Shown here: positions 713 through 58,036 of the stretch, piece after piece
Numbering within the stretch: position 1 is the stretch's first letter
Layout of the letters: each line of letters starts with the position of its first letter
IMG/VR virus record: IMGVR_UViG_3300009159_005817
Coordinates: 1-64,000 of that record
Length of the DNA stretch: 64,000 nucleotides
From: a virus
Direction: 5' to 3' (one strand)
Notes under the pieces: generated by a model
Told to the model about the DNA's origin: nothing
Seen by the model: only the letters and a program-made list of their open reading frames with translations
Database searches by the model: none
Position numbers and translations under genes: made by a program

Positions 713-713
713 T

Positions 714-1196: not shown

Positions 1197-1199
1197 AAT

Positions 1200-1834: not shown

Positions 1835-1856
1835 GATAATTTAAAAAATAAAAAAC

Positions 1857-2687
1857 ATGAAACATACACAAACATTCAAAGAGTTCTTAAATGAACAAGA
1901 AGAGATACTTAATGAAGATAGTTCTCTTGCACTTATGGTAATACTGCAAGCGGCTATAGTTAATGGACTTCTAATAGGTCAAATGGCGGCTAGTGGTGGT
2001 GGAGATGGCTTTCATCCTATCGATGATTTAAAAGCTTGGTGGGCGAAACGTAAAAAAGATAAAGCTGTAAAAAGTATTGTTGATAAATTAAAAGAAGATC
2101 CTGAAGTTTTAGCCTTTTTGAAAATGTCAAATTGGGCACAAAAAGGAAAATGGTATAAACTTATTGAACCTAAACTTAATGACGAAGAGAAAAAATATCT
2201 AAAAAGTATTTCAAGAACTCCATTTATGAATGAGGAAGTTAATGAAAATTCCGCAATCCTTCTTGATCTTTCTGATAAGCAGTTGGCACTTTCTATAAAG
2301 GCTAAATTACCAGCCAAGTATAAAAAAGATACGAAGACTTTAATATACAATGCTCCATATTCAATGGTTTCTCATGGTGCTAAACTTACAAACCTTCCAA
2401 CTCCTTCACGAGTATATCAATTGGAAAAAATGAATGAAACTTATAGAGGATCTGATAATTGGATATCTTTATCTTCATTAGCTATTGTACAAGATACAAC
2501 CAATCAAGTTACTTTTGTAATTGTATATGAAGAATTTGATCCAATTCAATTTGATGAAATAAAATCAAATAAAGATTTGTACAAAGAAGAGGATTATAAA
2601 GACGAAAAAGATTTGCTTAAAAAGATGCAAACTTGGTTTGCTTATTCTGAAAAGGTCTTTAAAGAAGTAATAGAAGATCACTCATAA
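1857..2687 (+). CDS. Putative capsid-targeted protein with hydrophobic segment (276 aa)
   Basis: The tag MKHTQTFKEFLNE|Q is followed by a second motif, ILNE|D, at about residue 20. A ~24-residue hydrophobic Gly/Ala segment (about residues 24-48) could insert in a membrane after ejection. A further motif, EVNE|N, lies near residue 129, separating a basic helical N-terminal half from an alpha/beta C-terminal half. P1' residues Q, D and N are less typical than A/G/S, so cleavage at these sites is less certain. Confidence 0.68.
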   Translation: MKHTQTFKEFLNEQEEILNEDSSLALMVILQAAIVNGLLIGQMAASGGGDGFHPIDDLKAWWAKRKKDKAVKSIVDKLKEDPEVLAFLKMSNWAQKGKWYKLIEPKLNDEEKKYLKSISRTPFMNEEVNENSAILLDLSDKQLALSIKAKLPAKYKKDTKTLIYNAPYSMVSHGAKLTNLPTPSRVYQLEKMNETYRGSDNWISLSSLAIVQDTTNQVTFVIVYEEFDPIQFDEIKSNKDLYKEEDYKDEKDLLKKMQTWFAYSEKVFKEVIEDHS

Positions 2688-2698
2688 AAAAACATAAT

Positions 2699-3175
2699 AT
2701 GAAACATATACTCACATTCAAAAACTTCTTAAACGAGGAAAGAGTTTATGGAATGTTCAATGATTCTCAAGGAAAACCATCTAAACTTTCACAAGAGATT
2801 TTAGATATTTGTCTAAAAGCACTACCTAAATATGTAATAGATAATATTGAATCAGTTGAAGCTTCCGGTTATTCTAAGACAAATTTAGCATCACCTCCTA
2901 CGGTTAGTAATAAAGGTCAATCAAGAGGTGAAAATGATTATACGACTATTGTTCTAATATTCAAAAATCCAATGGGAAAATCTAAAACAACTGAATTGAC
3001 GGTTGGATTAAGAAAAAGAACTTCTGGACCAGGAACTGGTTATCTTGCGGTTAAACCTACTGCAAATGGTCATTATGTTTTACCTGAACATAGTGCCGCA
3101 ATTGAATTTTATGATGCAGCGCCTGAAAGTTTAGCGGATTTATATAAGAGTACACTAGAAAAATTAATGAAATAA
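2699..3175 (+). CDS. Putative capsid-targeted protein (158 aa), unknown function
   Basis: The tag MKHILTFKNFLNE is nearly identical in DNA, over more than 35 bases, to that of the gene at 3541, showing recent copying of the tag module. The body has a predicted beta-rich core with RTSGPGTGYLAVKP near residue 110. No recognisable family. Leader is AT-rich without Shine-Dalgarno. Confidence 0.7.
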   Translation: MKHILTFKNFLNEERVYGMFNDSQGKPSKLSQEILDICLKALPKYVIDNIESVEASGYSKTNLASPPTVSNKGQSRGENDYTTIVLIFKNPMGKSKTTELTVGLRKRTSGPGTGYLAVKPTANGHYVLPEHSAAIEFYDAAPESLADLYKSTLEKLMK

Positions 3176-3176
3176 T

Positions 3177-3539
3177 ATGAAACATATACCAACATTCGAT
3201 AATTTCCTAAATGAAGGAACCATCATGATTTTTCACTACTCAAAGAAATCTTCAGAGATTGATGGTGACGTGAAAGAATTACAGAAGAAAGCTCAAGAAT
3301 TTATTAAAATCGCAAGAGACAAAGATTACAATATATCTTCTAACGATTCCGTACTTTATTTTCCAAATTTTAAATGGGCAGGAGGTAAACAAATCTTTGG
3401 ACCATCATTAGGTATTAAAGCAGGATCAGAAACAATGCTAATTAATCCAATAGGCTCTGATAAAATAATCAAGATTAGCGAAGGCTTGCTTGTTCGTTTT
3501 GTAAAAGACGGCAGAATCGAATCATATAATTTATACTAA
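3177..3539 (+). CDS. Putative capsid-targeted protein (120 aa), unknown function
   Basis: The tag MKHIPTFDNFLNE|G is followed by ~107 residues: an N-terminal helix rich in Lys/Glu and a C-terminal beta-rich part (LGIKAGSETMLINPIGSD). It lies one base after the previous stop. No family recognised. Confidence 0.7.
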   Translation: MKHIPTFDNFLNEGTIMIFHYSKKSSEIDGDVKELQKKAQEFIKIARDKDYNISSNDSVLYFPNFKWAGGKQIFGPSLGIKAGSETMLINPIGSDKIIKISEGLLVRFVKDGRIESYNLY

Positions 3540-3540
3540 T

Positions 3541-3789
3541 ATGAAACATATACTCACATTCAAAAACTTCTTAAATGAAGGATTCAAGAAACCTTATAGC
3601 GAAAAAATGAGCCTTGAGGATTTTTCTGCTATAGAAGTTGGAAGTGAGGTTCTTTATGCTGGAGCAACTTACGAAGTGGTTAACAACGATGGTGCAACTC
3701 TTCAATTAAAACCGGCTAAAGGTGCTAATGGTAAAGCGACTAAAGTTAATTTCTCAATGTTTAATGTTGCTGGAGCAATCCGCGATTAG
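3541..3789 (+). CDS. Putative capsid-targeted mini-protein with SH3-like fold (82 aa)
   Basis: The tag MKHILTFKNFLNE|G is followed by ~69 residues whose strand pattern (EVGSEVLYAGATYEVVNND) suggests a small SH3/KOW-like barrel, comparable to the C-terminal part of the gene at 714. It is the last member of the first tagged block; the next gene begins after an 85-base gap holding a CATATAAT promoter-like motif. Confidence 0.7.
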   Translation: MKHILTFKNFLNEGFKKPYSEKMSLEDFSAIEVGSEVLYAGATYEVVNNDGATLQLKPAKGANGKATKVNFSMFNVAGAIRD

Positions 3790-7232: not shown

Positions 7233-7847
7233 ATGCATGTAGTTATTGGAGCTAATGGATTAGCTAAACAAGTACTTCCTTTATACGACGCAAATCCTAG
7301 AGTTATCTTCTTTGATGATACTGAAAATGCAGGAGAGAACCTATATGAACATAAAATTGCACATGATCTTAAATGGGTAAAAGAGTATACGTCAATTGGC
7401 GAGACAGTAAATTTCTCAATTTGTATAGGAAATCCTAAATGGCGTGAGTATTTTTATTATCTTCTGGTTGATATGGGAGCCACACCAATTAATATCTTAT
7501 CGGAATTATCCTCCATTCAAGAGAGATCCGAGATTGACACAGGGAATATCTTTTTAGACTACACTTTAGTAGAAACCGATGTAAAAATTGGAAAAGGAAA
7601 CCTTATAAATTGCTATGCCGGTTTATTTCATGATTCTCAAATAGGAGATTTTAATGAGATTATGCCAGGAGCTAAAATTCTAGGAGGAGCTAAAATAGGT
7701 AACTCTTGTAGAATAGGAACGAATGCAACAATTCTTCCACAAATACATATTTGCTCGAATGTAGTAATTGGAGCTGGAGCAGTGGTTACTAAAAATATTA
7801 CTGAACCAGGAACATATATTGGAATTCCTGCAAGGAAGCAAGGATAA
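7233..7847 (+). CDS. NeuD/PglD-family sugar N-acyltransferase
   Basis: The N-terminus VVIGANGLAKQVLPLY matches the PglD_N nucleotide-sugar-binding domain. Residues ~105-200 form a left-handed beta-helix of hexapeptide repeats (IGKGNL, IGNSCRIG, VVIGAGAVV) with a candidate catalytic His in GLFHDSQIG. The family acetylates the amino group of UDP/GDP-4-amino-6-deoxy sugars. Placed directly after the aminotransferase, it would complete an NDP-4-acylamino-2,4,6-trideoxyhexose route. Confidence 0.83.
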   Translation: MHVVIGANGLAKQVLPLYDANPRVIFFDDTENAGENLYEHKIAHDLKWVKEYTSIGETVNFSICIGNPKWREYFYYLLVDMGATPINILSELSSIQERSEIDTGNIFLDYTLVETDVKIGKGNLINCYAGLFHDSQIGDFNEIMPGAKILGGAKIGNSCRIGTNATILPQIHICSNVVIGAGAVVTKNITEPGTYIGIPARKQG

Positions 7848-7870
7848 ATAACAAAATACAACATATATTA

Positions 7871-8752
7871 ATGGAATTTTTAAAGTACAACAACTTCATT
7901 CTTAATGAGCAATCTAAATGGGTTAATTTAGACACTATTAATGAAGCTGCACTTACGGCTACTCCAGATAAAAGCGTTAAGTTTGGTATTTGTATTACCA
8001 CTTACAAAATTGATGCTGGTGGTAGACAAAATCACATGTCCACCGAAAAAGTTCTGAGAGAATGTTTAGAGTCAGTTAAAACACAGAGTTGGCCAGAATG
8101 GAAAGTCTATATTATGGGAGACGCATATCCACAAGAAGAATGGCCGGAAATTGAAAAACTTGCTGCATCTATCGTTCCAAAAGATAAACTTTGGATGGAT
8201 AATCTAAAAACACCAGGAGAAAGAGACAAATATGATGGATCTATTCCACATCTAACAGGAGGAAATACGGCAGCAAACGTGACCATCGCTCAAATGAAAA
8301 AAGATGGCATTAAGTATTTTGCACGTCTTGACCATGATGATGCTTGGAAAACCGATCATTTAAAAACTCATGCTACTGCTTATACACAATTCCCAGAAGT
8401 TGTTTATAGTTTAACACAAGCTCGCAAGAAAAGAGTAAAAGGAGATGCCGGATCTTACATGTATTTTCCTGACAAAGGAACATATGAGAATTCTGAAAAT
8501 AATTACACATTAGGTCTTGGTGGACAATGTCATTCAGCAATGACTTGGAAATTAGAACCTTTAAAATATATCAAGTATCGTACTTGGGATCAACAAAAAG
8601 CGACACAACCTCGTAGAAAAGAGTGCTTCCCTGGCGATTGGGATAATACTGAAAGAATTAAAAGAATTGTAGAAGATGAAAATAATAAACACTCAATGAT
8701 TTTTGTTCCTAAATTAACTGTAAAATATCGTAACTCTGAAGGAAAATTTTAA
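7871..8752 (+). CDS. GT2-like glycosyltransferase with capsid-targeting N-terminus
   Basis: The first ~26 residues carry two cleavage-type motifs, MEFLKYNNFILNE|Q and DTINE|A. After them a GT-A fold begins (FGICITTYKID) with LRECLESVKTQSWPEWKVYI and the metal-binding FARLDHDDAW near residue 158, typical of family GT2. A tagged glycosyltransferase implies packaging in the head and delivery into the host, as T4 does with the ADP-ribosyltransferase Alt. It lies 23 bases after the sugar-synthesis genes. The packaging is inference. Confidence 0.75.
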   Translation: MEFLKYNNFILNEQSKWVNLDTINEAALTATPDKSVKFGICITTYKIDAGGRQNHMSTEKVLRECLESVKTQSWPEWKVYIMGDAYPQEEWPEIEKLAASIVPKDKLWMDNLKTPGERDKYDGSIPHLTGGNTAANVTIAQMKKDGIKYFARLDHDDAWKTDHLKTHATAYTQFPEVVYSLTQARKKRVKGDAGSYMYFPDKGTYENSENNYTLGLGGQCHSAMTWKLEPLKYIKYRTWDQQKATQPRRKECFPGDWDNTERIKRIVEDENNKHSMIFVPKLTVKYRNSEGKF

Positions 8753-8753
8753 T

Positions 8754-9326
8754 ATGAAAAAACTACTAATCTTATTAATCTCGAGTCTTCCTCTTTTTGG
8801 ATATTCACAAGACACTCTGGTAAAAAGACCTATCTATACTGTAAAATATTCTCAATCACTACAACAACCTCTTTGGTTAGAGTATTCTGTTAAAAGTCGT
8901 GAATGTGGAGCGAAACGAGATGGAATGGATTTTTATTCCGAAAAGGGAATTATAACAAGTGACAACGCTGATTATGCCGATAATGTTTATGATAAAGGTC
9001 ATATGGCTCCTGCTGCCGATTTCTGTGTTAATCGAGAAACTCTATTACTAACATTTTCCTATCTCAATTGTGCTCTTCAACACTATAAATTAAACCGAGG
9101 TGTATGGAAACAACTTGAATCAAATGAACGTGAATGGTCTAAAACTGATTCATTGATTATTCGAATCGATGTTATTTTTGAAAATGCTACCAAACTTCCT
9201 AGTGGTGCAACTATTCCTACTGCTTTTAAGAAGACTATTAAATTCTATAATTCAAAGAAGACGGTTGTTTATTACTTCAAAAACGAACCTCCTACAAAAA
9301 CACTAGATCAATATCTAGTTAAATAA
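8754..9326 (+). CDS. Exported NUC-type DNA/RNA endonuclease
   Basis: A signal peptide (MKKLLILLISSLPLFGYSQ) precedes a beta-beta-alpha-Me nuclease domain. YDKGHMAPAADF supplies the catalytic His (H83) of the (R/K)GH motif; LNCALQHYKLNRGVWKQLE supplies the metal-binding Asn (N105) and the conserved N114 and E122. The family (NucA, Serratia nuclease, EndoG) degrades DNA and RNA without sequence preference. Export to the periplasm suggests breakdown of incoming or released DNA. Confidence 0.87.
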   Translation: MKKLLILLISSLPLFGYSQDTLVKRPIYTVKYSQSLQQPLWLEYSVKSRECGAKRDGMDFYSEKGIITSDNADYADNVYDKGHMAPAADFCVNRETLLLTFSYLNCALQHYKLNRGVWKQLESNEREWSKTDSLIIRIDVIFENATKLPSGATIPTAFKKTIKFYNSKKTVVYYFKNEPPTKTLDQYLVK

Positions 9327-9330
9327 CTAA

Positions 9331-9399
9331 TTGTTAATAACTTTTGATCCCGAGATTTTTTAATCTCGGGATTTTGTATTATATTTGTATATACAATTT
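9331..9399 (+). promoter_or_regulatory. Dyad-type phage promoter 1 (Nudix gene)
   Basis: TTGTTAATAACTTT (9331) lies exactly 46 bases before TATTATATTTGTATATACAA (9377). The latter contains TATATTTG, fitting the Bacteroidota -7 consensus TAnnTTTG, and the perfect 12-base palindrome TTGTATATACAA. GTTAATAAC in the distal box is also a dyad. The start codon at 9410 follows by about 11 bases. An intrinsic terminator fills the spacer. Confidence 0.8.
9347..9375 (+). terminator. Intrinsic terminator nested inside promoter 1
   Basis: Perfect 11-base-pair stem ATCCCGAGATT / AATCTCGGGAT with a TTTT loop and a short T tail. It would end transcription of the nuclease and sugar operon while lying between the distal box and the -7 box of the next promoter. 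Confidence 0.75.
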
Positions 9400-9409
9400 A
9401 AAACAATAT

Positions 9410-9802
9410 ATGCAAAAGATTAGTGCTCAAGTTGTCCTCATCAACGAGGAAGGAAAAATTCTCTGTGTTTCTAGAAAAGATAACCATTCTGATTTTGGTT
9501 TACCTGGTGGTAAATCCGATCCTGAAGATAATGGTGATCCCGTTCAAACTGCCATTAGAGAAACCAAAGAAGAAACCGGTTTAGATGTTCACGATCTTAA
9601 ACTTATATTTGCAATTCATAAATACGGTTTCATGAATTATACTTATGTTGCCAAGTATTCTGGTGAAATTCATTTTAATGAACCTCATATTGTTAAATGG
9701 GCACCAATCAAATTAGCAACGGAAGGAACCTTCGGTGTGTATAATCAATTAGTTGCAGAATCCTTAAGAGATTCAAATTATGAATTCATCCGCCATTTTT
9801 AA
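9410..9802 (+). CDS. Nudix hydrolase
   Basis: The 130-residue protein carries a Nudix box (GGKSDPEDNGDPVQTAIRE then TKEETGLD, about residues 36-62) with the REx2EE core intact and a slightly expanded first half. Nudix enzymes hydrolyse nucleoside diphosphates linked to other groups. The start is set at 9410 because the in-frame codons upstream lie inside the promoter and terminator. The gene appears monocistronic, since another promoter follows at once. Confidence 0.88.
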   Translation: MQKISAQVVLINEEGKILCVSRKDNHSDFGLPGGKSDPEDNGDPVQTAIRETKEETGLDVHDLKLIFAIHKYGFMNYTYVAKYSGEIHFNEPHIVKWAPIKLATEGTFGVYNQLVAESLRDSNYEFIRHF

Positions 9803-9804
9803 AA

Positions 9805-9873
9805 TTGTTAATAACTTTATTCAAAAAGATTTTTTTATTTCACAAAGATTTATTATATTTGTATATACAATTT
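9805..9873 (+). promoter_or_regulatory. Dyad-type phage promoter 2
   Basis: TTGTTAATAACTTT at 9805 and TATTATATTTGTATATACAA at 9851, again spaced by exactly 46 bases. The spacer holds a T-rich run and CACAAAGAT. The next start codon (9887) is 14 bases beyond the palindrome region. Confidence 0.8.
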
Positions 9874-9886
9874 AAACAAATAACAT

Positions 9887-10096
9887 ATGCAACCTTTCGT
9901 AATTACTCTATCCGCTAAAGCCGCAAAATCTTTTCTTAAAGATCTTCGATCAAATGCAATTTCATTACAAACCATCGTAGAAAAAACCCATTTTACGCAT
10001 TTCGGATTTATGGAAGATTCACCTAAACTCCAAATGGCAATTCATTTAGTGAAAGAAAGATTCGGTACTAAATCATTTTCAATTGAATACATCTAA
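9887..10096 (+). CDS. Small promoter-proximal protein (69 aa), unknown
   Basis: A short, mildly basic protein (MQPFVITLSAKAAKSFLKD) immediately downstream of a strong promoter and apparently cotranscribed with 10115 and 10550. This placement is typical of early host-takeover genes. No motif recognised. Confidence 0.65.
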   Translation: MQPFVITLSAKAAKSFLKDLRSNAISLQTIVEKTHFTHFGFMEDSPKLQMAIHLVKERFGTKSFSIEYI

Positions 10097-10114
10097 TATT
10101 AAAACCAAAATCAT

Positions 10115-10534
10115 ATGAGCAATTACAAACAATGGATGAATCAAAAACAATCAGAAGTAAAAATAACAATTTCACCTTCTGATCTTGAGTACTCTGAAAT
10201 TATAAAAGAATATACATTACTTACTGGATCTACGAATTATTACGATAATCGTGATCTATACAATCAAATTACCAATAATATACGAAAGGTAATTATCTTA
10301 GAAAATGTTTCTTTAAACGAAGCTCAAACTTTCGCTGAACCTTTAAGAATTACATTCCCTAATCAATGTGTTTCACTTTATGCTGGTGAAAATTCATTCG
10401 TTGGTAATACCACTTGGAACGATCAATTAAAAATGTTTTTTGAATATCCAACATTTACGGAAATTGGAAAATCCATAATGGCAATCCGAAAAGAAGAAGC
10501 AAACGCAATGGGAATCGAAGCATCTTGGGAATAA
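10115..10534 (+). CDS. Unknown protein (139 aa)
   Basis: Soluble mixed alpha/beta protein (ITISPSDLEYSEIIKEYTLL near residues 18-37) with no recognised family. It is the second gene of the transcription unit started by promoter 2. Confidence 0.62.
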   Translation: MSNYKQWMNQKQSEVKITISPSDLEYSEIIKEYTLLTGSTNYYDNRDLYNQITNNIRKVIILENVSLNEAQTFAEPLRITFPNQCVSLYAGENSFVGNTTWNDQLKMFFEYPTFTEIGKSIMAIRKEEANAMGIEASWE

Positions 10535-10549
10535 TCAAAATTAATCTAT

Positions 10550-10684
10550 ATGCAATATATCAAAAAAATCTATCGTGCAATACGATGCAAATTTTGCGGA
10601 AAGAATATATCTTCCGTTGGTGCAGGAACCGAACCTCGACCTGAAATGTGTGAGCGATGCTATGAACATGGCGGAGATGAATAA
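10550..10684 (+). CDS. Zinc-finger mini-protein (44 aa)
   Basis: Starts ATG 10550, stops TAA 10682-10684. It contains two CxxC pairs (CKFCGK at residues 13-18 and CERC near 34-37), which form a small zinc-binding knuckle. A short promoter-driven zinc protein is typical of phage regulators of host machinery. The gene fills the gap exactly up to promoter 3. Confidence 0.6.
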   Translation: MQYIKKIYRAIRCKFCGKNISSVGAGTEPRPEMCERCYEHGGDE

Positions 10685-10753
10685 TTGTTAATAACTTTCC
10701 TACAAAACATTTTTTTATTCCACAAAAAAGTATTATATTTGTTATAACCAATT
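10685..10753 (+). promoter_or_regulatory. Dyad-type phage promoter 3
   Basis: TTGTTAATAACTTT at 10685, TATTATATTTGTTATAACCA at 10731, spacing 46. The start-site dyad differs from promoters 1 and 2 (GTTATAAC) but symmetry is kept. It drives the 80-residue gene at 10766. Confidence 0.78.
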
Positions 10754-10765
10754 AAAAAATAATCT

Positions 10766-11008
10766 ATGAATTCATTCTATGACAATCTAAAAGGCGTTGA
10801 AAAAGTAATGTACAAAACAAAATTCGACTTTCACATGAAATATTCTACCGGTGCTACCAAAGATTCTGCACATACTGCTGGTATTAAAGAGCTAGAAAGA
10901 CTTGGAAAAATGCGTAAAGAAATGGATCAACCACAAACTTATGTAGATCTTTCAACTGGTCGTAAATTTCGTTCAACCGAATCAGAACTTATATCACGTA
11001 ATTCTTAA
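10766..11008 (+). CDS. Unknown basic protein (80 aa)
   Basis: Charged small protein (KVMYKTKFDFHMKYSTGATK) directly behind promoter 3, ending with a Ser/Glu-rich tail. No family recognised. Probably an early gene judging from the promoter. Confidence 0.6.
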   Translation: MNSFYDNLKGVEKVMYKTKFDFHMKYSTGATKDSAHTAGIKELERLGKMRKEMDQPQTYVDLSTGRKFRSTESELISRNS

Positions 11009-11028
11009 CATCATATAAATTATAACTA

Positions 11029-11274
11029 ATGAAAAAATTACTCACATTTGCTCTTATCATTGTTTCTATTGCAACTTCATGTAAAGAGCCAAAAAGTAAA
11101 ACCGTTGTTAATCACATAGTTCAATCTATTGACACATCATTAAAATGGAATCCGACTATTCAACGAATGGAACCAATCTATGTTTATCATTATATAGATG
11201 GTGATAGTGTAAGAATGGCTGCTGATCGAATAAAAATCGGTGATACCATACCATACATATATTATAAATACTAA
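11029..11274 (+). CDS. Putative lipoprotein (81 aa)
   Basis: The N-terminal hydrophobic segment ends in a lipobox (SIATSC with Cys18), followed by KEPKSK and a polar domain with a C-terminal strand-rich part (GDTIPYIYYKY). It should be lipidated and exported. A CATATAAAT motif lies about 10 bases before the start. The target is unknown; superinfection exclusion is one possibility. Confidence 0.65.
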   Translation: MKKLLTFALIIVSIATSCKEPKSKTVVNHIVQSIDTSLKWNPTIQRMEPIYVYHYIDGDSVRMAADRIKIGDTIPYIYYKY

Positions 11275-11283
11275 TCTTTTCGA

Positions 11284-13119
11284 ATGAAAGTAACAGACAT
11301 AAGTAAAAAATACGAATTACTCGATGAAATACAGCACGTCTTAAAAAGACCTGGAATGTATATTGGTTCAACCAAACCACATCAATCATCCGAGTATTTT
11401 TTAGAAGATGGTAAATTTCAAAAAGAAGAAATTGAATTTAATCCAGGCTTTCTAAAATTATTTGATGAAATCGTTTCCAACTCGGTAGATGAATCTAAAC
11501 GTAATAAGACACTAGATACTATCGTTGTAAATGTAAACGAACAAACAAATGAAATTACCATTTGGGATAATGGTGGTATTCCAGTTGTTCAACATACTGA
11601 ACACAAACAATGGATTCCAGAATTAATCTTCTCAAATCTTCGTGCTGGTTCAAATTTCGATGATACTCAATCAAGAACCGTTGCTGGAACAAATGGTGTT
11701 GGTTCCACATTAACTAATATCTTTTCCAAGAAATTTACAGTAAAAACGGCAGATGGTAAAAATCAATACCTTCAAACCTTTTCCGACAACATGGGAAAAC
11801 GAACCGAAGCTAAGATTTCCAAATCTGATAGAAAATTTACTGAAATATCTTATATCGCGGATCTTCAACAATTTGGAATGAAATCAATTGGCGAAAAGCA
11901 TCTCAAAATGATGCGTAAACGTTTAATCGATATTGCCGCTGCAAATCCAGGACTTCGAGTAAATTTCAATAAAGAGAAATATCGTTTCAAATCATTTTTA
12001 GAATATGTTAAATTATACGTCAATGAAGCTTTATTCGAATCTTCAGAAAATTGGGAATTCGCTTTTGCACCATCAAACGGATCTTTTCAATCTGTTTCCT
12101 TTGTTAACTCCATTGAAACTAAGGATGGTGGAACTCATATCAATTACATCTTAAATCAAGCAGTTGAAAAACTACGAATTCTAATTAAGAAAAAACATAA
12201 AGTCGAGGTAAAACCAGCCGAGATTCGTAATCACATTTTTCTATTTGTTAATGCAACGGTATTCAATCCGGCATTCTCATCCCAAACTAAAGAAAAACTA
12301 ATTACCGAACCTAAAGATTTTGGATCTTCTCATATCATTTCAGATAAACTTGCAATGCGTATCTTTCAATCTGAAATTGTAAAATCATTACTTGATTGGA
12401 TAGATCGTAAAAAGGAAGCTGATGAAAGAGCACAACTTCGTAAATTAAACAAGAATTTAGATACCACCAAGATTCAAAAGCTAATTGATGCAAAATCTAG
12501 AGGTGATCGTGATAAATGTGTACTTGGTATATTCGAAGGAATGAGTGCATTAAGTGCCGTTCGTAAATTTAGAGAACCTCAATCATTCGGTGCATTTCCA
12601 CTCAAAGGAAAATTCCTAAATGTTAATGAACTAAAACCATCTGATGTTATTAAGAATCGTGAAGTAGTCGATCTTATGGGTTCGCTTGGACTTCGTTTAG
12701 GTGAAGCACCTGAAAATCTTCGATATGGTAAAATTTACATATATACCGATGCTGATCCAGATGGTGATGCAATCGCTGCATTGTTAATTAATTTCTTCGC
12801 TAAATTTTGGCCAGAATTATTTACTGAAAATCGCATCTTCCGTATTATGACTCCTATTGTGGTTGCTCAAAAAGGAAAACAAACCATGAGTTTCTATACT
12901 AACGAAGAATATCATAAATGGTTTAAAGAAATCGATCCAAAACCCTGGTCTATCGAATACAAAAAAGGTCTTGCATCTCTTGAAGATGTGGAATACAACG
13001 ATATCATTCGTAATCCAAATACTTTATTGCTTACTAGCGATAAATTATTCAAACAAACTTTATCTGAATGGTTCGGTGGAGATTCAACCCCTAGAAAAAC
13101 AAAATTGTTAAAAGCGTAA
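11284..13119 (+). CDS. DNA topoisomerase II large subunit (T4 gp39-like, GyrB/ParE)
   Basis: Residues 1-210 hold the GHKL ATPase: VLKRPGMYIGS, FDEIVSNSVDES, IWDNGGIPV and the AGTNGVGSTLTN lid. The TOPRIM domain has E417 (GIFEGMSALS) and DADPDGD (about residues 489-495). At 611 aa it is near the size of T4 gp39 and shorter than bacterial GyrB. It pairs with the following gene, four bases away, to form a phage type II topoisomerase for replication. Confidence 0.95.
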   Translation: MKVTDISKKYELLDEIQHVLKRPGMYIGSTKPHQSSEYFLEDGKFQKEEIEFNPGFLKLFDEIVSNSVDESKRNKTLDTIVVNVNEQTNEITIWDNGGIPVVQHTEHKQWIPELIFSNLRAGSNFDDTQSRTVAGTNGVGSTLTNIFSKKFTVKTADGKNQYLQTFSDNMGKRTEAKISKSDRKFTEISYIADLQQFGMKSIGEKHLKMMRKRLIDIAAANPGLRVNFNKEKYRFKSFLEYVKLYVNEALFESSENWEFAFAPSNGSFQSVSFVNSIETKDGGTHINYILNQAVEKLRILIKKKHKVEVKPAEIRNHIFLFVNATVFNPAFSSQTKEKLITEPKDFGSSHIISDKLAMRIFQSEIVKSLLDWIDRKKEADERAQLRKLNKNLDTTKIQKLIDAKSRGDRDKCVLGIFEGMSALSAVRKFREPQSFGAFPLKGKFLNVNELKPSDVIKNREVVDLMGSLGLRLGEAPENLRYGKIYIYTDADPDGDAIAALLINFFAKFWPELFTENRIFRIMTPIVVAQKGKQTMSFYTNEEYHKWFKEIDPKPWSIEYKKGLASLEDVEYNDIIRNPNTLLLTSDKLFKQTLSEWFGGDSTPRKTKLLKA

Positions 13120-16450: not shown

Positions 16451-19400
16451 TTGAGCGCTAGACAAGTAAATGCACAAGAAGCAATTGTTTCCATCACTAG
16501 CAAGATGGAAGCGATGCTTCAGCAAGTGCAAACCCAATATGATCAGTCAATTAATTTATTAACGTCATTAAATACAACAATGACGGTTGATGTTGGGCAG
16601 GAGCTTAAGAAGCAAACCTCCTTACTTATGTCCATTGAGGCTAAGATAGGAACCAATGGAGGTAGTGCTGGCGAAGATAAAATGTTAGGCAAGAATTTAG
16701 AAATTCTCTCTAAAGGATTGAGTAAACTTGTTAAAGCGGCTGAAAAAATTAAACCTAAAACTGGCGAACAAGTAAAAGAATTTTTAGGTAATATAGCTGA
16801 TGGTCTAGCTAGTTTAACTGATAAAATAGATGAAAAGAAAGCTGAAATTATAGCGAATACGGTTATAACTTTAGCAAAAGGTGTTCTTCTATTTGGATTA
16901 GCAATGACTCTATATGTAATACTCGGACCAACCGCAATGTTAGGTTCAATGCTATTTGGATTAACAATTAGACTCTTATTGAAATCTGCCGGAGAAGTAG
17001 ATGAAAATTCGCTTAAAGGAATTGTTGCAGTTGCTGCATTAGGTCTTGGTGTTATATATTTTGGATTAGCAATGGCTTTATATGCAGTTATTGGTATTCC
17101 TGCAATGCTAGGTGCTGTTTTATTTGGATTAACCGTTAGATTATTAGCTAAAACTGCCGGATTAAATGATCCTAAAGTTGCTGCTGGAATTGTCGGAATT
17201 GCTGCATTAGGTCTTGGAGCCATATATTTTGGATTAGCAATGTTGGGTTATGCAATTATCGGTATTCCAGCAATGCTAGGTGCTGTTTTATTTGGATTAA
17301 CCGTTAGATTATTAGTGAAAACAGCTGGTTTAAACGATCCTAAAGTTGCTGCCGGAATGCAAGCCTTAATAGGACTTGGTAAAGCTATTTTAATATTCGG
17401 TTTAGTTATGTTGGCTTATGCAATTATTGGTATTCCTGGATTGATTGGTGCTTTGGTTCTTGCATTAACTCTTAAACTTCTTTCGAAAAGTATTAAGTCA
17501 ATGGGATCTAATATGGTCAGAAAAGGAATTATAAATATGGCTTTAGGAGCTATTGCTATTATTCTTCTCGGATTAACTATTATATTATTTGCAAAAGAGG
17601 TTCCTATAATGAGTTCTCTTTATGTTATTCTTACCATTGGTGCATTTGCTTTAGCCTTCTATATAGTAGGTAAATTCTTTAATGATATATTAAAAGGAGC
17701 TCTTGCAGTTGCTGCTATAGGATTAGGTATATCATTCTTAGCCTTAGGTTTATTCTTTTATAAATCAGTTGGAATGACTTGGGAAGAAACCGCAATGTTA
17801 GGGGTTACTATCGCTGGTCTTGGATTAGTAATGGGAGGTGCTGGTGAATTCTTTATGGAAATTATTAAAGGATCCGCTGCAATGATAGTCGCCGGAATTG
17901 CTCTAATAGTTATTTCTGCGGGTTTACTTGTATTCGCTCAAACTAAATTAACATTTCAAGATGCTGCTATTCTAGGAGCTACCATCTTAGGACTTGGTGT
18001 TGTAATGGGAATTGCCGGTGCTGGACCGGTACCTTTATTTATTGCATTAGGATCTGCCGCAATGATTGTTGCTGGTTTATCTTTAGTAGTTCTTTCTCTT
18101 GGTCTTGGAGCATTCAAGCTAACCGGATTTAAAGTTGAAGATGCTTTATCTTTAGGAGCTGCTATAGGTGCAGTTGGTGTAACTATGGGTATTGCCGGAT
18201 TAGCCTCTCCATTTATTATATTAGGTAGTGCAGCAATGGCTATTGCCGGTGTTGCATTAATGCCTCTTGCATTAGGATTGGCCGTATTCAAAGCTATTGG
18301 TTGGAAAAAAGGAACCGATGATGAGAGTTTAAAATCTGCATTAGGTTCCGTAATATCTGGTTTTCTTGGAGGAGATATGCCTGGTGGTATTCTTGCATCA
18401 ATTAAATTTGCTGCTCAAGCGGCAGCTAGATCGGTTCTTCTATTCATAGCAATTCCGCCATTAATTCTTGCCGGTGTTGCTTTATTGTCTATCTCTTTAG
18501 GATTAGCCGCATTTAAGAAAGCCGGATTTACTTCTTCGGATTCTGCTAATATGGAAGCTGCTATTGGTGGTATCGTTGGAGCATTCTCATTAGTTACTGA
18601 TAAAGAACGTCAGAAGAAAATGGGAATCAATGTCGATTGGATGGATTTAATGATTGGTATTATGGCACTTTCACAAGCCGGAAATACTCTATCTTCATTA
18701 GCAAAAGGAATTCAAGCATTTGCTAATCTTTCAGTTATTGAATATGAGGTGGTTGGTGCTGGAACTAAAAATGCTAAAATCGTTCCTAAAGGAATTACCA
18801 AATTAAGCAAGTCCGATTTTGAATCAGCGGCTTATGGAATGGCACAAGTAATTGGGGCTATTGCCGAACCATTCGCTTTAGTTGGTAAATTAGAAAAGGG
18901 TACACCATCTGGAAATCCTTTCTATGATGCAATATTCGGTGGTGGATTTGTATCTGCCGGTATTGATGCATTATCAAGATCTGGAGATACTCTTGTTAAT
19001 TTAGCAAAAGGAGTACAAGCATTCGCTAATCTCGAAATAACTGAATATGAAGTAATTGGTGCTGGAACTAAAAATGCTAAAATAATTCCTAAATCGATTA
19101 CGAAAATGTCGCCGACAGATTTTGCTGCTGCCGGAGCCAATATAGCAAAAATTATTGCGGTTGTTGCCGAAGCATTCGCTAAAGTAGGTAAAGATGAAGC
19201 TGCATCTGAAGGAGTATTCTCTGGAGGATTCTTATCTAAAGGAGTCGAAGCATTAGCTAACATAGGAGAAAATCTACAAGGAATTACTGAATCGGTTATT
19301 AAAGTTGCAACAGGAACATTTACTCCAATGACTGCCGTTCAAGACGGAAAAGGTACTAAATTAGTACCTGGAACTCCTATTAAAATTTCTAAGGCAATGT

Positions 19401-20191
19401 TAGAAGAGGCTGCCAGAACAATTAATAGTGTTATAATGGTTCTAGGACAGGGAATGATGGACTTCGGAACATTCGTTGACGAGAATGAAGATTCTATCGA
19501 CGAAGCTATTGAATACATTCCTACAATGAGTGAAGCCTTAATGAAGATGGTAGAGGTTAATGAAAAATTCTCTAAGATAACAGATGCAGATAAAGGAGTT
19601 AAATCATTTACTAGTTTTAATCAAGCAGTAATGGATGCTTATGATCCAGCCAAGCAGAAAAATCTTCCTCAAACAGCAGGATATATGATGCTATTCGTTA
19701 AAGGTATTGAAAGACTTGCTGCACCGGCCGATCAATTAGGTAAGGTTGCATCTAACGTAGAACGTATAGAAGCAGCAATGAAAAATATCAAAACTCATGT
19801 TAATGGATTTGATATGGAAAGGCTTACTAAAACGGATTCTCTATTTAAGTCAATGGCGATTTTATCAAAGAATCCTGAAGCTATGGCTGCTAAAATTAAT
19901 GATACTCTTAAAGTTGCATTTGAAGAATTTGGTAAAGCTCTTACCGAAGCAATTAAAGAATCCGGTGGTGGTGGTGGCGGTGGCGGTGGTGGAATACTTG
20001 AAGGCGTTAAAGATATTTTGACTCCAGGTCCAGCAGGTGCTGCTCCAAAAGCTACCGATCCAAAAGGAAAGGCTGCTCCTGGACCTGCTCCTCTCACTGC
20101 AGAGGCGATTGGAGCTGCTATGTCGAAAGCTTTAAATGCCGCTTCAATTACCATAAAACCGGCAGCAAACGCGGTATTCAAAACCACCTAA
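16451..20191 (+). CDS. Tape-measure-like tail protein (1246 aa) with tandem membrane repeats
   Basis: Start TTG, eight bases after the previous stop. The N-terminal ~130 residues are coiled-coil; residues ~140-640 are a long array of hydrophobic helices (repeats of the IYFGLAMALYAVIGIPAMLG type); then come two copies of a QAFANL..IEYEVVGAGTKNAK module (about 760-880), a helical region and a run of ten glycines near residue 1180. Position after the gp26-like gene and the length fit a tape measure that sets tail length and inserts in the host membrane during DNA entry. A different large membrane-active virion protein is the alternative. Confidence 0.65.
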   Translation: MSARQVNAQEAIVSITSKMEAMLQQVQTQYDQSINLLTSLNTTMTVDVGQELKKQTSLLMSIEAKIGTNGGSAGEDKMLGKNLEILSKGLSKLVKAAEKIKPKTGEQVKEFLGNIADGLASLTDKIDEKKAEIIANTVITLAKGVLLFGLAMTLYVILGPTAMLGSMLFGLTIRLLLKSAGEVDENSLKGIVAVAALGLGVIYFGLAMALYAVIGIPAMLGAVLFGLTVRLLAKTAGLNDPKVAAGIVGIAALGLGAIYFGLAMLGYAIIGIPAMLGAVLFGLTVRLLVKTAGLNDPKVAAGMQALIGLGKAILIFGLVMLAYAIIGIPGLIGALVLALTLKLLSKSIKSMGSNMVRKGIINMALGAIAIILLGLTIILFAKEVPIMSSLYVILTIGAFALAFYIVGKFFNDILKGALAVAAIGLGISFLALGLFFYKSVGMTWEETAMLGVTIAGLGLVMGGAGEFFMEIIKGSAAMIVAGIALIVISAGLLVFAQTKLTFQDAAILGATILGLGVVMGIAGAGPVPLFIALGSAAMIVAGLSLVVLSLGLGAFKLTGFKVEDALSLGAAIGAVGVTMGIAGLASPFIILGSAAMAIAGVALMPLALGLAVFKAIGWKKGTDDESLKSALGSVISGFLGGDMPGGILASIKFAAQAAARSVLLFIAIPPLILAGVALLSISLGLAAFKKAGFTSSDSANMEAAIGGIVGAFSLVTDKERQKKMGINVDWMDLMIGIMALSQAGNTLSSLAKGIQAFANLSVIEYEVVGAGTKNAKIVPKGITKLSKSDFESAAYGMAQVIGAIAEPFALVGKLEKGTPSGNPFYDAIFGGGFVSAGIDALSRSGDTLVNLAKGVQAFANLEITEYEVIGAGTKNAKIIPKSITKMSPTDFAAAGANIAKIIAVVAEAFAKVGKDEAASEGVFSGGFLSKGVEALANIGENLQGITESVIKVATGTFTPMTAVQDGKGTKLVPGTPIKISKAMLEEAARTINSVIMVLGQGMMDFGTFVDENEDSIDEAIEYIPTMSEALMKMVEVNEKFSKITDADKGVKSFTSFNQAVMDAYDPAKQKNLPQTAGYMMLFVKGIERLAAPADQLGKVASNVERIEAAMKNIKTHVNGFDMERLTKTDSLFKSMAILSKNPEAMAAKINDTLKVAFEEFGKALTEAIKESGGGGGGGGGGILEGVKDILTPGPAGAAPKATDPKGKAAPGPAPLTAEAIGAAMSKALNAASITIKPAANAVFKTT
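17093..17316 (+). repeat. Tandem 168-base repeat in the tape-measure gene
   Basis: The stretch starting GGTATTCC at 17093 recurs at 17261 with near identity over more than 50 bases, including GCAATGCTAGGTGCTG and the following TTTGGATTAACCG. The period is 168 bases, or 56 residues, one helix-pair unit. Diverged copies lie on both sides, showing growth by in-frame duplication. Confidence 0.8.
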
Positions 20192-22361: not shown

Positions 22362-22381
22362 AGAGTGAGGCCTCTATGTTT
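22362..22381 (+). repeat. Right arm of inverted repeat around the zinc-ribbon gene
   Basis: AGAGTGAGGCCTCTATGTTT is the reverse complement of the arm at 21484 except for one extra C, and contains the small palindrome GAGGCCTC. It ends five bases before promoter 4. Confidence 0.65.
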
Positions 22382-22385
22382 TAAT

Positions 22386-22454
22386 TTGTTAATAACTTTA
22401 TTCAAATAAATTTTTTTATTCCACAAAAAAGTATTATATTTGTATATACAATTT
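22386..22454 (+). promoter_or_regulatory. Dyad-type phage promoter 4
   Basis: TTGTTAATAACTTT at 22386 and TATTATATTTGTATATACAA at 22432, spacing 46, with the conserved T-run and TTCCACAAAAAAG in the spacer. It precedes a cluster of five small overlapping genes. Confidence 0.8.
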
Positions 22455-22468
22455 AAAACAATATACAT

Positions 22469-22669
22469 ATGACAATGACTAAATTAGACTACAACAAAAT
22501 CTCAAACGTATTCGTAGGTGGAATCGATATGGAAGATTTTCCAGATTTCTGTGACGCTTACATCGAATCTGCTGATTATGATAATCGTGAAATGACCGAC
22601 GAAGAATTAGATATTCTTAACGAAGACGGTAGCTTTATTTCCGAACACGCACATTCACAAATTTGTTAA
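22469..22669 (+). CDS. Small acidic protein (66 aa), unknown
   Basis: Strongly acidic (FPDFCDAYIESADYDNRE, DEELDILNEDG). Acidic mini-proteins behind early promoters are often DNA mimics or inhibitors, but I see no specific motif. First gene of the promoter 4 unit. Confidence 0.65.
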   Translation: MTMTKLDYNKISNVFVGGIDMEDFPDFCDAYIESADYDNREMTDEELDILNEDGSFISEHAHSQIC

Positions 22670-23209: not shown

Positions 23210-23678
23210 TAAATTAAAATGGAAACCTTTTCAATTGAGAGAGGGTTCAATTTCCATAACTAATTACTTTATCGATAAAGATGGAAAGAAATGTCCAATG
23301 CAATCACATTTAGATATTCCCAAATATTCATTCTTTGAGATTGTAAAATGGGAACCTAATCAATATTATGGTAAGCTTCAAGAATATTTAGATAATGGAT
23401 GGAACATATCATTTGGCGGAGATTTCCTTCAACGGAATAATACCTCTATTTCTCTATCATTCTTTACCGGATCTCCTGAATCTTGTTTCATGCTTGCCTC
23501 ATGGGAAAACATGGATCATGATGAAAAATCTCCTGACCTTAAATTTGTAGGATCTCGTCCAATGGATTTAAATGAAGAAGAACAGGCAATTTTCATGCAG
23601 ATTGCAAAAGCCGGTCAACAACATATAGAAAAGGTATTAAGCAAATTCAACGAAGAAGATCACGATCATTGGAATTAA
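23187..23678 (+). CDS. Unknown protein (163 aa)
   Basis: Mixed alpha/beta protein with an acidic C-terminal helix (NEEEQAIFMQIAKAGQQHIE). The start inside the previous gene is the only in-frame ATG before residue 40. It ends one base before promoter 5. No family recognised. Confidence 0.6.
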   Translation: MGRLRNFNKLKWKPFQLREGSISITNYFIDKDGKKCPMQSHLDIPKYSFFEIVKWEPNQYYGKLQEYLDNGWNISFGGDFLQRNNTSISLSFFTGSPESCFMLASWENMDHDEKSPDLKFVGSRPMDLNEEEQAIFMQIAKAGQQHIEKVLSKFNEEDHDHWN

Positions 23679-23679
23679 A

Positions 23680-23748
23680 TTGTTAATAACTTTTGAAACA
23701 AATATTTTTTTATTCCAAAAAGATTTATTATATTTGTATATACAATTT
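23680..23748 (+). promoter_or_regulatory. Dyad-type phage promoter 5
   Basis: TTGTTAATAACTTT at 23680 and TATTATATTTGTATATACAA at 23726, spacing 46, identical architecture to promoter 4. Confidence 0.8.
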
Positions 23749-23762
23749 AAAACAATATACAT

Positions 23763-24032
23763 ATGACACACAGAGAATTCCATTTAAACGTAACAAAAGC
23801 AATTACCGAAAACTCCGGTAGAGAAGTTTATCCCATAATATACAAAGTTGGTGATACTTTAACACTTAACGAAAAACAATTCGATGATCTTCAATCTGGT
23901 TCTACTATCACTTTTTATACTAACGAAGGAATCATGGAATTTGACAAATATAATTTTAATAATGAAGTTTCCTTCACAGAAATAACCGTTCAATCCGGAA
24001 CTCGCAAATTAGGTCAACGTAAAAAGAAATAA
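23763..24032 (+). CDS. Unknown promoter-proximal protein (89 aa)
   Basis: Beta-rich small protein (YKVGDTLTLNEKQFDDLQSG) with a basic tail (RKLGQRKKK), possibly nucleic-acid binding. Single gene between promoters 5 and 6. Confidence 0.6.
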   Translation: MTHREFHLNVTKAITENSGREVYPIIYKVGDTLTLNEKQFDDLQSGSTITFYTNEGIMEFDKYNFNNEVSFTEITVQSGTRKLGQRKKK

Positions 24033-51619: not shown

Positions 51620-53143
51620 ATGAAACCTATTAAAAACTACAACGAATTCATTAATGAAGCATGGATTGGTCCATTCGTATTCAATGAAGACATGACCGAT
51701 GATGAACTAAAGGCTATATACCAAGGTGCATTAGATGGATTTGCTTATTGGCAAAAAGGATTTGAATATCCAAAAGCCGATTACAAAAAGGCATATACTG
51801 AAATTGGAAAGATTCTAAAGAAAAGAGGAGTTAATGTTGATGAATCTGTTAATGAAGGATCTAACGACGAAATGGTAAAACGGAGTTGTGTCGAAAGACT
51901 TTCTCAATTCTTTAGAGTTAGTCCAAACGCATTATCACATTTCAAATTTGATGGAACCGATAACATTAAAGCTTTAACAAAAGCTCTTAATTCTACATCA
52001 GATGAAGGAACCGAGGCATACTATAAAGTAGCAATCCGAGTTGGAAAACAAGATGCCGGTATCGAAGAATCTATCGAGGAATCAGCTAAATGTCCTCCTA
52101 TATACATTCCGGTATTATCTAATATCGATCATACTAGAATAATCAAATGGATGGATATTCATTTTGATAGTCATAAATGGGATATGAAGAAATCCGGTGC
52201 TGGTTTTGAAATCGATGTTGAAAAACTATCTAGTCAAGAACAAGATGATTTATTAAAATATTTACACTCACAAGATTATTTAGAAGAATCTGTTAATGAA
52301 GCTTGGAGTAATATAGACACCGACAAAGCTGCCGATCTAATCAATAAAGAAATTGGAGTTAATCCTGGTTATTTCTTTATTGGCGATGAAGATTTATGCA
52401 TCAAATTTGATAAATTATGGACTGAAAAGAAATACAAAGTAGCTCTTAATATGTTATTTTTTATTGAAAATCTAAAAGATCTTAAAGACTTCATAAAACA
52501 AAACCAAAACGAATCGGTTAATGAAGCAGTATCACCAGAAGTACATCGTATGGTTAATAAATTTGTAACCGGTATGGCTGATAAATATGATTATTCTTTA
52601 CAAGATGCAGTTTATGCAATACTAGACGTTTTAAAAAGTCAAAAATATAAAGGATTAAAAGAATCTGTTAATGAAGGTGAAACTTTAATATTTGATGAGA
52701 TCGGAGAAAACCTAACCAAACTTCAGGATCAAATAGATGCAATGCTTAAATGGGAAATCACCGATCAAAAATGGATCGTTGCACTTAAAACAATTCAATC
52801 TGCCTGTTCTAAATTGGAAGATACTGTCGCTAAAGCTGATCAGAAATTAGGTGCTATTGAATATAATGAATCCATTAGTGAAGGTCTTTTAAAATTAGAT
52901 GAAGGTGCTGTTAAACAATTTGAGATCGATTATAAAGACATGGAAAGTAGTATCAAACGAGGTATTGGTTGGATTGATCCTGAATATGTGGCTGAAACTT
53001 GGGAGAATTCTTCAGATACTATTGATTATGAAATAGTTAGAAATGAAATTCTTACTCGTCTAATTAAAGCCGATCTTCTTTATACATCACTAGATGGAGA
53101 AACTAAAGGTAAAAGAATTACCAACATAAGTCAAATTAAATAA
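51620..53143 (+). CDS. Capsid-targeted polyprotein with repeated protease sites (507 aa)
   Basis: ATG 51620 gives the tag MKPIKNYNEFINE|A. Matching motifs recur inside: ESVNE|G (after E79), ESIEE|S (E154), ESVNE|A (E227), ESVNE|A (E302), ESVNE|G (E352), ESISE|G (E421) and LDE|G (E428). Cutting at all would release seven small proteins of about 50-79 residues, each with its own helical or alpha/beta pattern. The linkers are far more alike than the domains, as in a beads-on-a-string polyprotein. Processing by the prohead protease is inferred from the T4 L/I-x-E rule. Confidence 0.78.
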   Translation: MKPIKNYNEFINEAWIGPFVFNEDMTDDELKAIYQGALDGFAYWQKGFEYPKADYKKAYTEIGKILKKRGVNVDESVNEGSNDEMVKRSCVERLSQFFRVSPNALSHFKFDGTDNIKALTKALNSTSDEGTEAYYKVAIRVGKQDAGIEESIEESAKCPPIYIPVLSNIDHTRIIKWMDIHFDSHKWDMKKSGAGFEIDVEKLSSQEQDDLLKYLHSQDYLEESVNEAWSNIDTDKAADLINKEIGVNPGYFFIGDEDLCIKFDKLWTEKKYKVALNMLFFIENLKDLKDFIKQNQNESVNEAVSPEVHRMVNKFVTGMADKYDYSLQDAVYAILDVLKSQKYKGLKESVNEGETLIFDEIGENLTKLQDQIDAMLKWEITDQKWIVALKTIQSACSKLEDTVAKADQKLGAIEYNESISEGLLKLDEGAVKQFEIDYKDMESSIKRGIGWIDPEYVAETWENSSDTIDYEIVRNEILTRLIKADLLYTSLDGETKGKRITNISQIK

Positions 53144-57508: not shown

Positions 57509-58036
57509 ATGGCAAAACGTAGAATTCAAAACCGAACCATAATGTTTTTTGGTCAGGTTACAGAAAACAATGTATCTAAAGTCATCGATCAAATTGATGC
57601 CATTTTAGAAGAAGATCCGAATGACAATGGTCCCATCAAAATCATTCTGTCTAGTGAAGGTGGAGATGTGTATGATGGATTTGGCCTTATAGGTTATATG
57701 GAATCTATACCAATAAAATTCCATATTCATTGTGTAGGTAAAATCATGTCAATGGCATTACCAATCGCTCTATCAGGAGATTTAGTTACTGCATCTCCTT
57801 ATTGTACTTTCATGTATCATGAAATATCCCATTCCGTACCATATCACGAGAAGATACAATATCACAAACAAGAATTAAAAGAATGTGACCGTCTACAGAA
57901 GATGTACGATGAGTATATAGTTAATCACACCAAGTTCGATAAAGTGTTCCTAGATGATATTAAGGATAAACGAGCAGAGTTCTATTTTTCACCGAAAGAA
58001 GCCATTAAATATGGTGTCATATCTAAAATAGTTTAG
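57509..58036 (+). CDS. clpP: ClpP-like serine protease
   Basis: Catalytic Ser S81 in GKIMSMALPIAL and His H104 in CTFMYHEIS, with the oxyanion-loop LSSEGGDVYDG (about 48-58), match ClpP. 175 aa, lacking a propeptide. It could be a host-like degradative peptidase or a capsid maturation protease. The E|A/G/S rule of the tags points rather to a T4 gp21-like enzyme elsewhere, so its role here is open. Confidence 0.85.
   Translation: MAKRRIQNRTIMFFGQVTENNVSKVIDQIDAILEEDPNDNGPIKIILSSEGGDVYDGFGLIGYMESIPIKFHIHCVGKIMSMALPIALSGDLVTASPYCTFMYHEISHSVPYHEKIQYHKQELKECDRLQKMYDEYIVNHTKFDKVFLDDIKDKRAEFYFSPKEAIKYGVISKIV

Follow-up and report, generated by a model that had tools for sequence, protein, structure and literature searches.

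The 64,000-nucleotide stretch of viral DNA analyzed here (the window; positions 1 to 64,000 of IMG/VR record IMGVR_UViG_3300009159_005817) contains a gene at 51620–53143 on the plus strand, whose product, P0001 (507 residues plus stop), repeats one short motif between a row of different segments. The locus raises the question of whether the gene encodes one protein or a string of several and, if several, what would separate them. The original prediction was a packaged string of effectors cut by the head protease. The polyprotein part of that claim is well supported by comparison, as segments turn over at the motifs. It is probable that P0001 is a head polyprotein, imported into the prohead by an N-terminal tag and cut by an S77-type protease at the tag and the linkers into internal mini-proteins that are kept and later ejected.

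Anatomy of the chain

The reading frame, identified by translation and motif count, was taken to start at 51620, just past the end of the upstream gene at 51603. This start yields the tag, while an in-frame ATG at 51518 would lengthen the product to 541 residues. The tag (MKPIKNYNEFINE|, residues 1–13, 51620–51658; all features of the gene are on the plus strand) was recognized with tag patterns, and its presumed role follows the capsid targeting sequence of phage T4 (PMC9026906; this and the other papers are cited from the portions available). Candidate cuts follow residues 13, 79, 154, 227, 302, 352, 421 and 428, so that the positions recovered from the translation are those of the original prediction, from the FINE|A end of the tag onward. 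They delimit segments of 66, 75, 73, 75, 50, 69, (7) and 79 residues: module 1 (residues 14–79, 51659–51856), module 2 (80–154, 51857–52081), module 3 (155–227, 52082–52300), module 4 (228–302, 52301–52525), module 5 (303–352, 52526–52675), module 6 (353–421, 52676–52882), the heptapeptide GLLKLDE between two candidate sites (52883–52903) and the C-terminal module 7 (429–507, 52904–53140), whose end carries no motif.

The six linkers are ESVNE|G (linker 1, 51842–51856), ESIEE|S (linker 2, 52067–52081), ESVNE|A (linkers 3 and 4, 52286–52300 and 52511–52525), ESVNE|G (linker 5, 52661–52675) and ESISE|G (linker 6, 52868–52882). The repeated core described earlier is real, but its first Glu, given as variable, never varies: the core is always E-S-(V/I)-x-E, and the variable residue is the one preceding it (D, E, E, N, K, N). 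A feature that had been overlooked is that four of these linkers carry two sites each, an upstream half-site of the hydrophobic-x-E|S type (VDE|S, IEE|S, LEE|S and LKE|S in linkers 1, 2, 3 and 5) giving VDE|SVNE|G, IEE|SIEE|S, LEE|SVNE|A and LKE|SVNE|G.

The pattern ES[VI]xE[AGS] occurs six times in P0001, against a mean of 0.007 and a maximum of 1 in 20,000 shuffles, and the looser [VIL]xE[AGS] occurs 12 times, against a mean of 1.9 and a maximum of 9 in 20,000 shuffles. Across 339 called ORFs of the 254-kb record that includes the window, the stricter pattern is found seven times, six of them in P0001. Raw site density is not special to P0001, however: the prohead protease of the same phage has 16 sites in 633 residues and another protein has 11 in 468, and since both are equally site-dense, sites by themselves prove little. 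As these two are likely core proteins, their density lends weight to the main rival explanation, that P0001 is a prohead core or scaffold protein, cut to shrink it so that the pieces can exit the head, and with no later job. We hold this to be unlikely, though a serious contender. Neither of the two site-dense proteins has even spacing or a constant linker.

The whole of P0001 is poorly modeled (mean pLDDT 50.4). With aligned relatives, modules 1 and 2 reach 70–89 in most ten-residue blocks, dipping at residues 74–80 and 149–171. Modeled alone, module 2 attains 86.9 and comprises four helices, with only its last four residues, within the motif, below 50; it is predicted to fold right up to the motif, which is predicted to be disordered. 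Such a confidently predicted fold for module 2 alone argues against a core protein. No function was read from the fold, because the closest structures match in a range that may reflect just a common arrangement (best VIA-align Z score 5.1); a Foldseek search with module 2 gave no match at E ≤ 0.001 in PDB or BFVD.

Family searches of P0001 yielded no PHROG match and no Pfam model above cut-off. The polyproteins of three other loci (L126, L058, L112) likewise have no PHROG match, and that of L078 matched only phrog_6437, of unknown function. Among the polyproteins scanned, the only Pfam family to pass its cut-off was DUF3008, at the N-termini of L089 and L117. Sub-cut-off matches to YqzH, NgoMIV, MnmE, Gig2 and RRF, plus Cas2 and others in PADLOC, were treated as chance. 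Rfam gave no matches in the window.

Module exchange at the linkers

A homolog in the related phage G003 (locus L004) has 315 residues and retains the tag type, modules 1 and 2, the LDE|G site (SLSKLDE replacing GLLKLDE) and module 7. A new module of 75 residues stands between modules 1 and 2, modules 3–6 are absent, and all of the joints coincide with linkers. In L169 the module order is 2, 6, 1, with linkers bounding each. Comparison of homologs for gain or loss of whole segments between motifs, proposed with the original prediction, thus reveals gain, loss and reordering, all at linkers.

Module 1 is present in L004, L169, L364 and L365, with different neighbors in L169 and in L364/L365. 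Module 2 is found in L004, L047, L164, L168, L169, L170 and L171; it is the first module, behind an apparent tag, in L164, and stands without a linker at the end of the open frame in L168 and L171. Module 6 has relatives in L047 and L169. For modules 3, 4 and 5 no convincing relative was found, module 5 having been searched without a pattern specific to it, and the region spanning residues 199–344 gave one weak match (L103, E 9e-4).

The wording of the linker is less constant than its position. In L170, where one module is duplicated, the linkers read SLKE|A, and in the near-identical phages L364 and L365 module 1 ends VDE|A, with SVNE wholly missing. Because module 1 can end in this way without SVNE, the comparison suggests a role for SVNE as a spacer separating two cuts. 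Homologs that retain the domains but not ESVNE had been named as evidence against the original prediction; such cases do occur in part, in L170 and L364/L365, but most of the junctions seen carry another hydrophobic-x-E.

Module 1 differs from its L004 counterpart by 10 synonymous and no non-synonymous changes, and dN/dS is about 0.13 for module 7 and about 0.25 for module 2. All three are under purifying selection. Their dS values are unequal (0.35, 0.53 and 1.24), as expected if modules have separate histories. Exchangeability of the modules and purifying selection on the three tested both speak against a core protein with no later job.

Similar chains are found in many viral stretches. A scan for two ESVNE motifs about 68–78 residues apart found an in-frame pair in at least 119 stretches, all of which have two or more ESVNE within a single open frame. 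The scrambled pair ENVSE, with a first half four times more permissive, gave no matches, and 105 control loci picked by the reversed 15-mer contain no ESVNE. The stretches do not represent 119 independent phages, as they include close duplicates (L047/L082, and the window relatives L053 and L092). Spacings between motifs fall at 68–78 residues in 148 of 291 cases, at 40–67 in 56 and at 79–100 in 32, but since the scan selects ESVNE and the first of these ranges, the spacings in other phages cannot serve as independent evidence of module size. Removal of 16 duplicate or overlapping loci and of identical ORFs left 122 ORFs with two or more motifs, on 111 loci; among 82 ORFs, chains carry up to eight linkers.

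Cutting at the motifs gave 369 segments of 35–115 residues, which form 201 clusters when coverage is required on both sides, 66 of them in at least two loci. Single-linkage clustering was dropped, having chained 242 modules into one cluster. By a strict count, 6 of the 66 shared clusters have at least two different clustered neighbors on both sides and 33 on at least one side; a looser count, in which unclustered neighbors are taken as different, gives 43 of 66. BLAST alignment ends inside ORFs (675) lie within two residues of a motif in 18.2% of cases, compared to 3.7% for random points, and within five residues in 32.7%, compared to 8.4%. The pooled 369 modules have a mean net charge of +4.5, and 84% are positive. 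A basic, DNA-binding role was considered on this account and rejected, as every segment of P0001 is neutral or acidic.

Some modules also occur as small proteins with a tag of their own. There are 123 short ORFs with at most one motif that carry a module, and 38 of these consist of an 8–40-residue start and one module. The module matches C-terminal modules of polyproteins in 33 of the 38 and internal modules in five, for example at L156:5478–5723, where MKITKTQLKQMIREEIQSLKE| is followed directly by the module. The existence of modules as singly tagged small proteins is a further argument against a core protein.

A tblastn search of 50,697 phage records with P0001 returned a single match, at E 6, and module 1 has no match in named phage records. 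A module search of genome contigs found no relative. The polyproteins of L126, L100 and L087 matched 1, 28 and 0 records of named phages, respectively, mostly through single modules in isolates such as C48C1, Melnitz, HTVC008M and immuto; that of L169 matched 27. No long ESVNE array was seen in the four isolate regions read. One module (L169:6607–6801; residues ~314–380 in L047) resembles part of certain actinophage genes, whose annotation is either capsid maturation protease or hypothetical. In Gordonia phages the L169 module resembles the final stretch of a gene labeled “capsid maturation protease,” and the module also resembles a stretch in one portal gene of another phage.

Sequence constraints at the candidate cut sites

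The residue following the motif (P1′) was not set by the scan. In 82 ORFs (80 listed loci, the window and L004), 160 of 233 ESVNE have A, G or S at P1′ (69%, against a background of 20%) and 31% have another residue. In a separate count, A and G together number 222 and D, V and E together 56, the background ratio being 7,693 to 11,696. As A and G far exceed the other residues with G-starting codons, conservation of a leading G at the DNA level is no explanation for P1′. At the upstream half-site, P3 is occupied by I, L or V in 97 of 233 (42%, against 18%). Among 99 complete ORFs, none has ES[VI]xE within six residues of its end, and 19 have any [VIL]xE in the last seven.

One module family was gathered by its own sequence, so that copies were not chosen by motif, although the family itself was drawn from motif-selected ORFs. 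The best 80 of 123 relatives were used, and removal of identical module-plus-flank rows left 45 distinct contexts, many of them near-identical. Where protein follows the module (33 copies), a hydrophobic-x-E comes next in 30, with A, G or S after it in 23 and another P1′ in seven; one of the remaining copies is followed by T-x-E-A and two by neither. None of the nine C-terminal copies has a site after it, and three further copies run off the contig. The upstream flank has a site in 28 contexts, x-E only in 11 and neither in four, and is off the contig in two. Within the family modules, no site is present in any of 513 windows. Six of the 45 contexts are on contigs already in the ESVNE set; without these, removed by comparison of contig names, an x-E site follows 26 of 28 internal copies (one as T-x-E) and none of eight terminal copies. 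The linkers of the family read ESINE, EGIIKE, ESLIKE, ESVVNE and ESTINE, and since their wording varies, it is the site that is conserved and not ESVNE as such. In this family the sites thus fall between modules and not within them, which is a point against the core explanation.

A second rival explanation is that the chain remains uncut and ESVNE serves as a recombination seam and flexible linker, kept alike by homologous exchange. Linker DNA does look like a recombination seam as well: 370 copies comprise 28 distinct 15-mers, and pairs are identical as 15-mers in 52% of comparisons within one ORF and 21% between loci, as exchange would have it. Codon choice is narrow too, although in each stretch the scan itself restricted the codons allowed in one or more linkers. 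A seam that is never cut is nevertheless improbable. A and G are favored after the motif, and not merely residues with G-starting codons (222 against 56); differing linkers at the same joints keep hydrophobic-x-E (EGIIKE|A, ESLIKE|A, ESVVNE|G, SLKE|A, VDE|A); and C-terminal module copies are without a site.

Head-gene setting and the nearest known systems

The window is contained at 100% identity in IMGVR_UViG_3300009158_000031 (G002), of 254,393 bases. The window's own 122-kb record, a fragment, has no S77 match, and the protease was therefore taken from the longer record. The head cluster of G002 comprises a portal gene (phrog_213), an S77-type prohead protease gene (PF03420/phrog_207) and a gp23-type major head protein gene (phrog_138), with the terminase large subunit further along. 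PF03420, the T4-type S77 prohead protease family, scores above cut-off at G002:101739–102092, within a gene (G002:101682–103583, equal to L015:1682–3583) for 633 residues. The C-terminal part of that product is full of repeated AES/NES-like sites and may be a fused scaffold.

Including P0001, G002 encodes 29 proteins with a tag of the strict pattern; a looser pattern finds 54 starts in G002 and seven in the reversed sequence. P2 is N in 26 of the 29, matching the VNE of the linkers, compared with 35 of 258 other [VIL]xE[AGS] sites of the G002 proteome. Eight consecutive singly tagged genes, the one-product counterpart of the chain, lie at 107–3789 (+) of the window, with starts at 107, 714, 1200, 1604, 1857, 2699, 3177 and 3541. 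Their tags of 13–14 residues are alike and their bodies unlike, and the run looks like an island of cargo genes, each for a singly tagged head protein. Immediately upstream of the window, a singly tagged protein of 87 residues (G002:133186–133446, equal to L016:13186–13446) aligns with one of the internal modules of the L077 polyprotein (E 1e-9). At 7871–8752 of the window, a product with a loosely tag-like start (ILNE|Q) has an above-cut-off match to Pfam glycosyltransferase family 2 and is possibly an enzyme carried in the head.

Two further features of the phage were observed. A dispersed AT-rich element of ~90 bases, intergenic in the window (9793–9889, 22381–22474, 23675–23768) and also present at L015:18975–19075 and L021:9710–9810, is about 87–91% identical among copies and contains TATATTTG, which resembles the Bacteroidota −7 box, TAnnTTTG. 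The element may be a phage promoter, which would point to a Bacteroidota host. An ORF of 1,228–1,246 residues at 16451–20191 contains two pairs of repeats, 16880–17284 with 17048–17452 (77%) and 18656–18790 with 18959–19093 (80%).

Beyond G002, an S77 protease scores above cut-off on 17 of 25 motif-selected contigs and three of 25 controls (Fisher p = 0.0001; five controls at E ≤ 0.1), the control contigs being shorter on average (about 55 against 78 kb). The motif-selected contigs are those of at least 25 kb among the listed loci, minus L053 and L092, with 39 unlisted loci left out. In 10 of the 17, the polyprotein gene lies less than 5 kb from the protease gene, where 3.1 would be expected at random (P = 0.00015), and in the other seven it is 13–101 kb away; L123 has two polyprotein ORFs, one of which was placed. 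The gene order in L126 is portal, genes for 281 and 168 residues, protease, polyprotein, a 79-residue gene, a scaffold-like gene (by eye) and major head protein. PHROGs confirm the portal, protease and major head protein of L126; gene context in the other contigs was read by eye.

This setting bears on the core explanation in both directions. In several contigs the polyprotein gene stands between the portal and gp23-type genes, and the modules seem to be inserted into a short portal-adjacent protein, both as a core protein might have it. Such a protein has 159 residues in L099 (6371–6847) and 431 in L087 (4277–5569), where the extra sequence between the N- and C-terminal parts contains three ES[VI]xE motifs; L099 contains none. 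On the other hand, several contigs, again by eye, have a separate scaffold-like gene beside the major head protein gene (without a PHROG match in L126).

In G002 about 80 kb separate the P0001 gene from the head cluster, and eight of the 25 motif-selected contigs have no S77 match. These observations are what a third rival explanation has in its favor, in which cleavage takes place but P0001 works outside the head, or a different protease does the cutting, for example the ClpP-like product of 57509–58036 (by eye). We consider this very unlikely, as the linker agrees with the site that ends the tag in singly tagged proteins, and S77 enrichment and adjacency are found elsewhere.

The closest known counterparts of a tagged head polyprotein are the T4 internal proteins IPI, IPII and IPIII and Alt, which share a short N-terminal tag ending in hydrophobic-x-E, an S77 protease and small size. 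The T4 prohead protease cleaves after L/I-x-E, and the first ten residues of IPIII are enough to carry a protein into the head (PMC9026906). Mature IPI* has 76 residues, close to the segments of P0001 (66, 75, 73, 75, 50, 69 and 79), and is injected together with the DNA, blocking a restriction enzyme; apart from the conserved targeting sequence, T-even internal proteins are described as diverse (PMC3012670). The internal-protein model fits the sizes of the segments and the turnover of modules. P0001 has a tag of 10–20 residues ending in L/I-x-E (MKPIKNYNEFINE|A) and, in G002, the protease. However, each T4 internal protein has one gene and one tag, whereas here one tag heads a chain with seven candidate products rather than a single mature product per gene, and P0001 is for this reason not classed as an ordinary internal protein. 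As in viral polyproteins, the sites lie at module boundaries and are kept when modules move.

The T4 core proteins gp22, gp67 and gp68 are cut by the prohead protease at several sites into fragments that mostly leave the head (PMC9026906). This precedent favors the core explanation, and P0001 resembles these proteins in its several candidate sites. In several contigs, polyprotein genes also occupy the corresponding stretch of the head cluster: the L126 gene sits in the portal–protease–gp23 cluster, and 10 of 17 contigs have polyprotein and protease genes less than 5 kb apart, but in G002 the gene is ~80 kb off. P0001 differs from the T4 proteins in that the sites bound exchangeable modules and lie mostly in a near-constant linker. 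Head proteins of phiKZ, 201phi2-1 and SPN3US are also cut at several sites per chain by a glutamate-specific prohead protease, but there the part with several cuts is described as a propeptide that has to be removed and does not form a series of different modules (PMC9026906, PMC5694885, PMC10052503). Polyvalent proteins, multi-domain, mosaic and thought to be injected with phage DNA, join large and often catalytic domains (PMC5512222), whereas most modules here are shorter than 100 residues and the polyproteins scanned have no enzyme family above the Pfam cut-off. In the open literature, subscription papers and preprints aside, no description of prohead-protease-cut cargo polyproteins in tailed phages was found.

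Besides segment turnover at the motifs, four comparisons support the polyprotein: a site after internal but not C-terminal module copies, the preference for A and G at P1′, S77 enrichment and some modules that occur singly tagged. From these and the likeness to T4 we infer a pathway in which MKPIKNYNEFINE, like the T4 capsid targeting sequence, would bring the chain into the assembling prohead, where the S77 protease would cleave after hydrophobic-x-E at the tag and at every E-S-(V/I)-x-E linker. Linkers are probably often cut twice (xxE|SVNE|A). Cleavage would free seven folded mini-proteins of 50–79 residues within the head, each about the size of IPI*, which would stay with the DNA and enter the host with it, where any function they have would be exerted. 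The linker would double as an evolutionary seam, at which modules are gained, lost and reordered.

The system may be a widespread and unrecognized form of cargo delivery in T4-like phages, in which a tag imports a polyprotein, the protease frees mini-proteins for ejection and the seam allows host-directed or anti-defense modules to be traded; this wider proposal is tentative. If the polyprotein reading is right, more than 100 uncharacterized phage ORFs (122 here) would parse into mini-proteins by a simple rule, and a ladder of the corresponding peptides is predicted in virions. The chains would offer a natural format for fixed-ratio packaging of several proteins in T4-type heads, and their modules a searchable stock of small head-delivered proteins, among them perhaps anti-restriction or takeover factors like IPI*.
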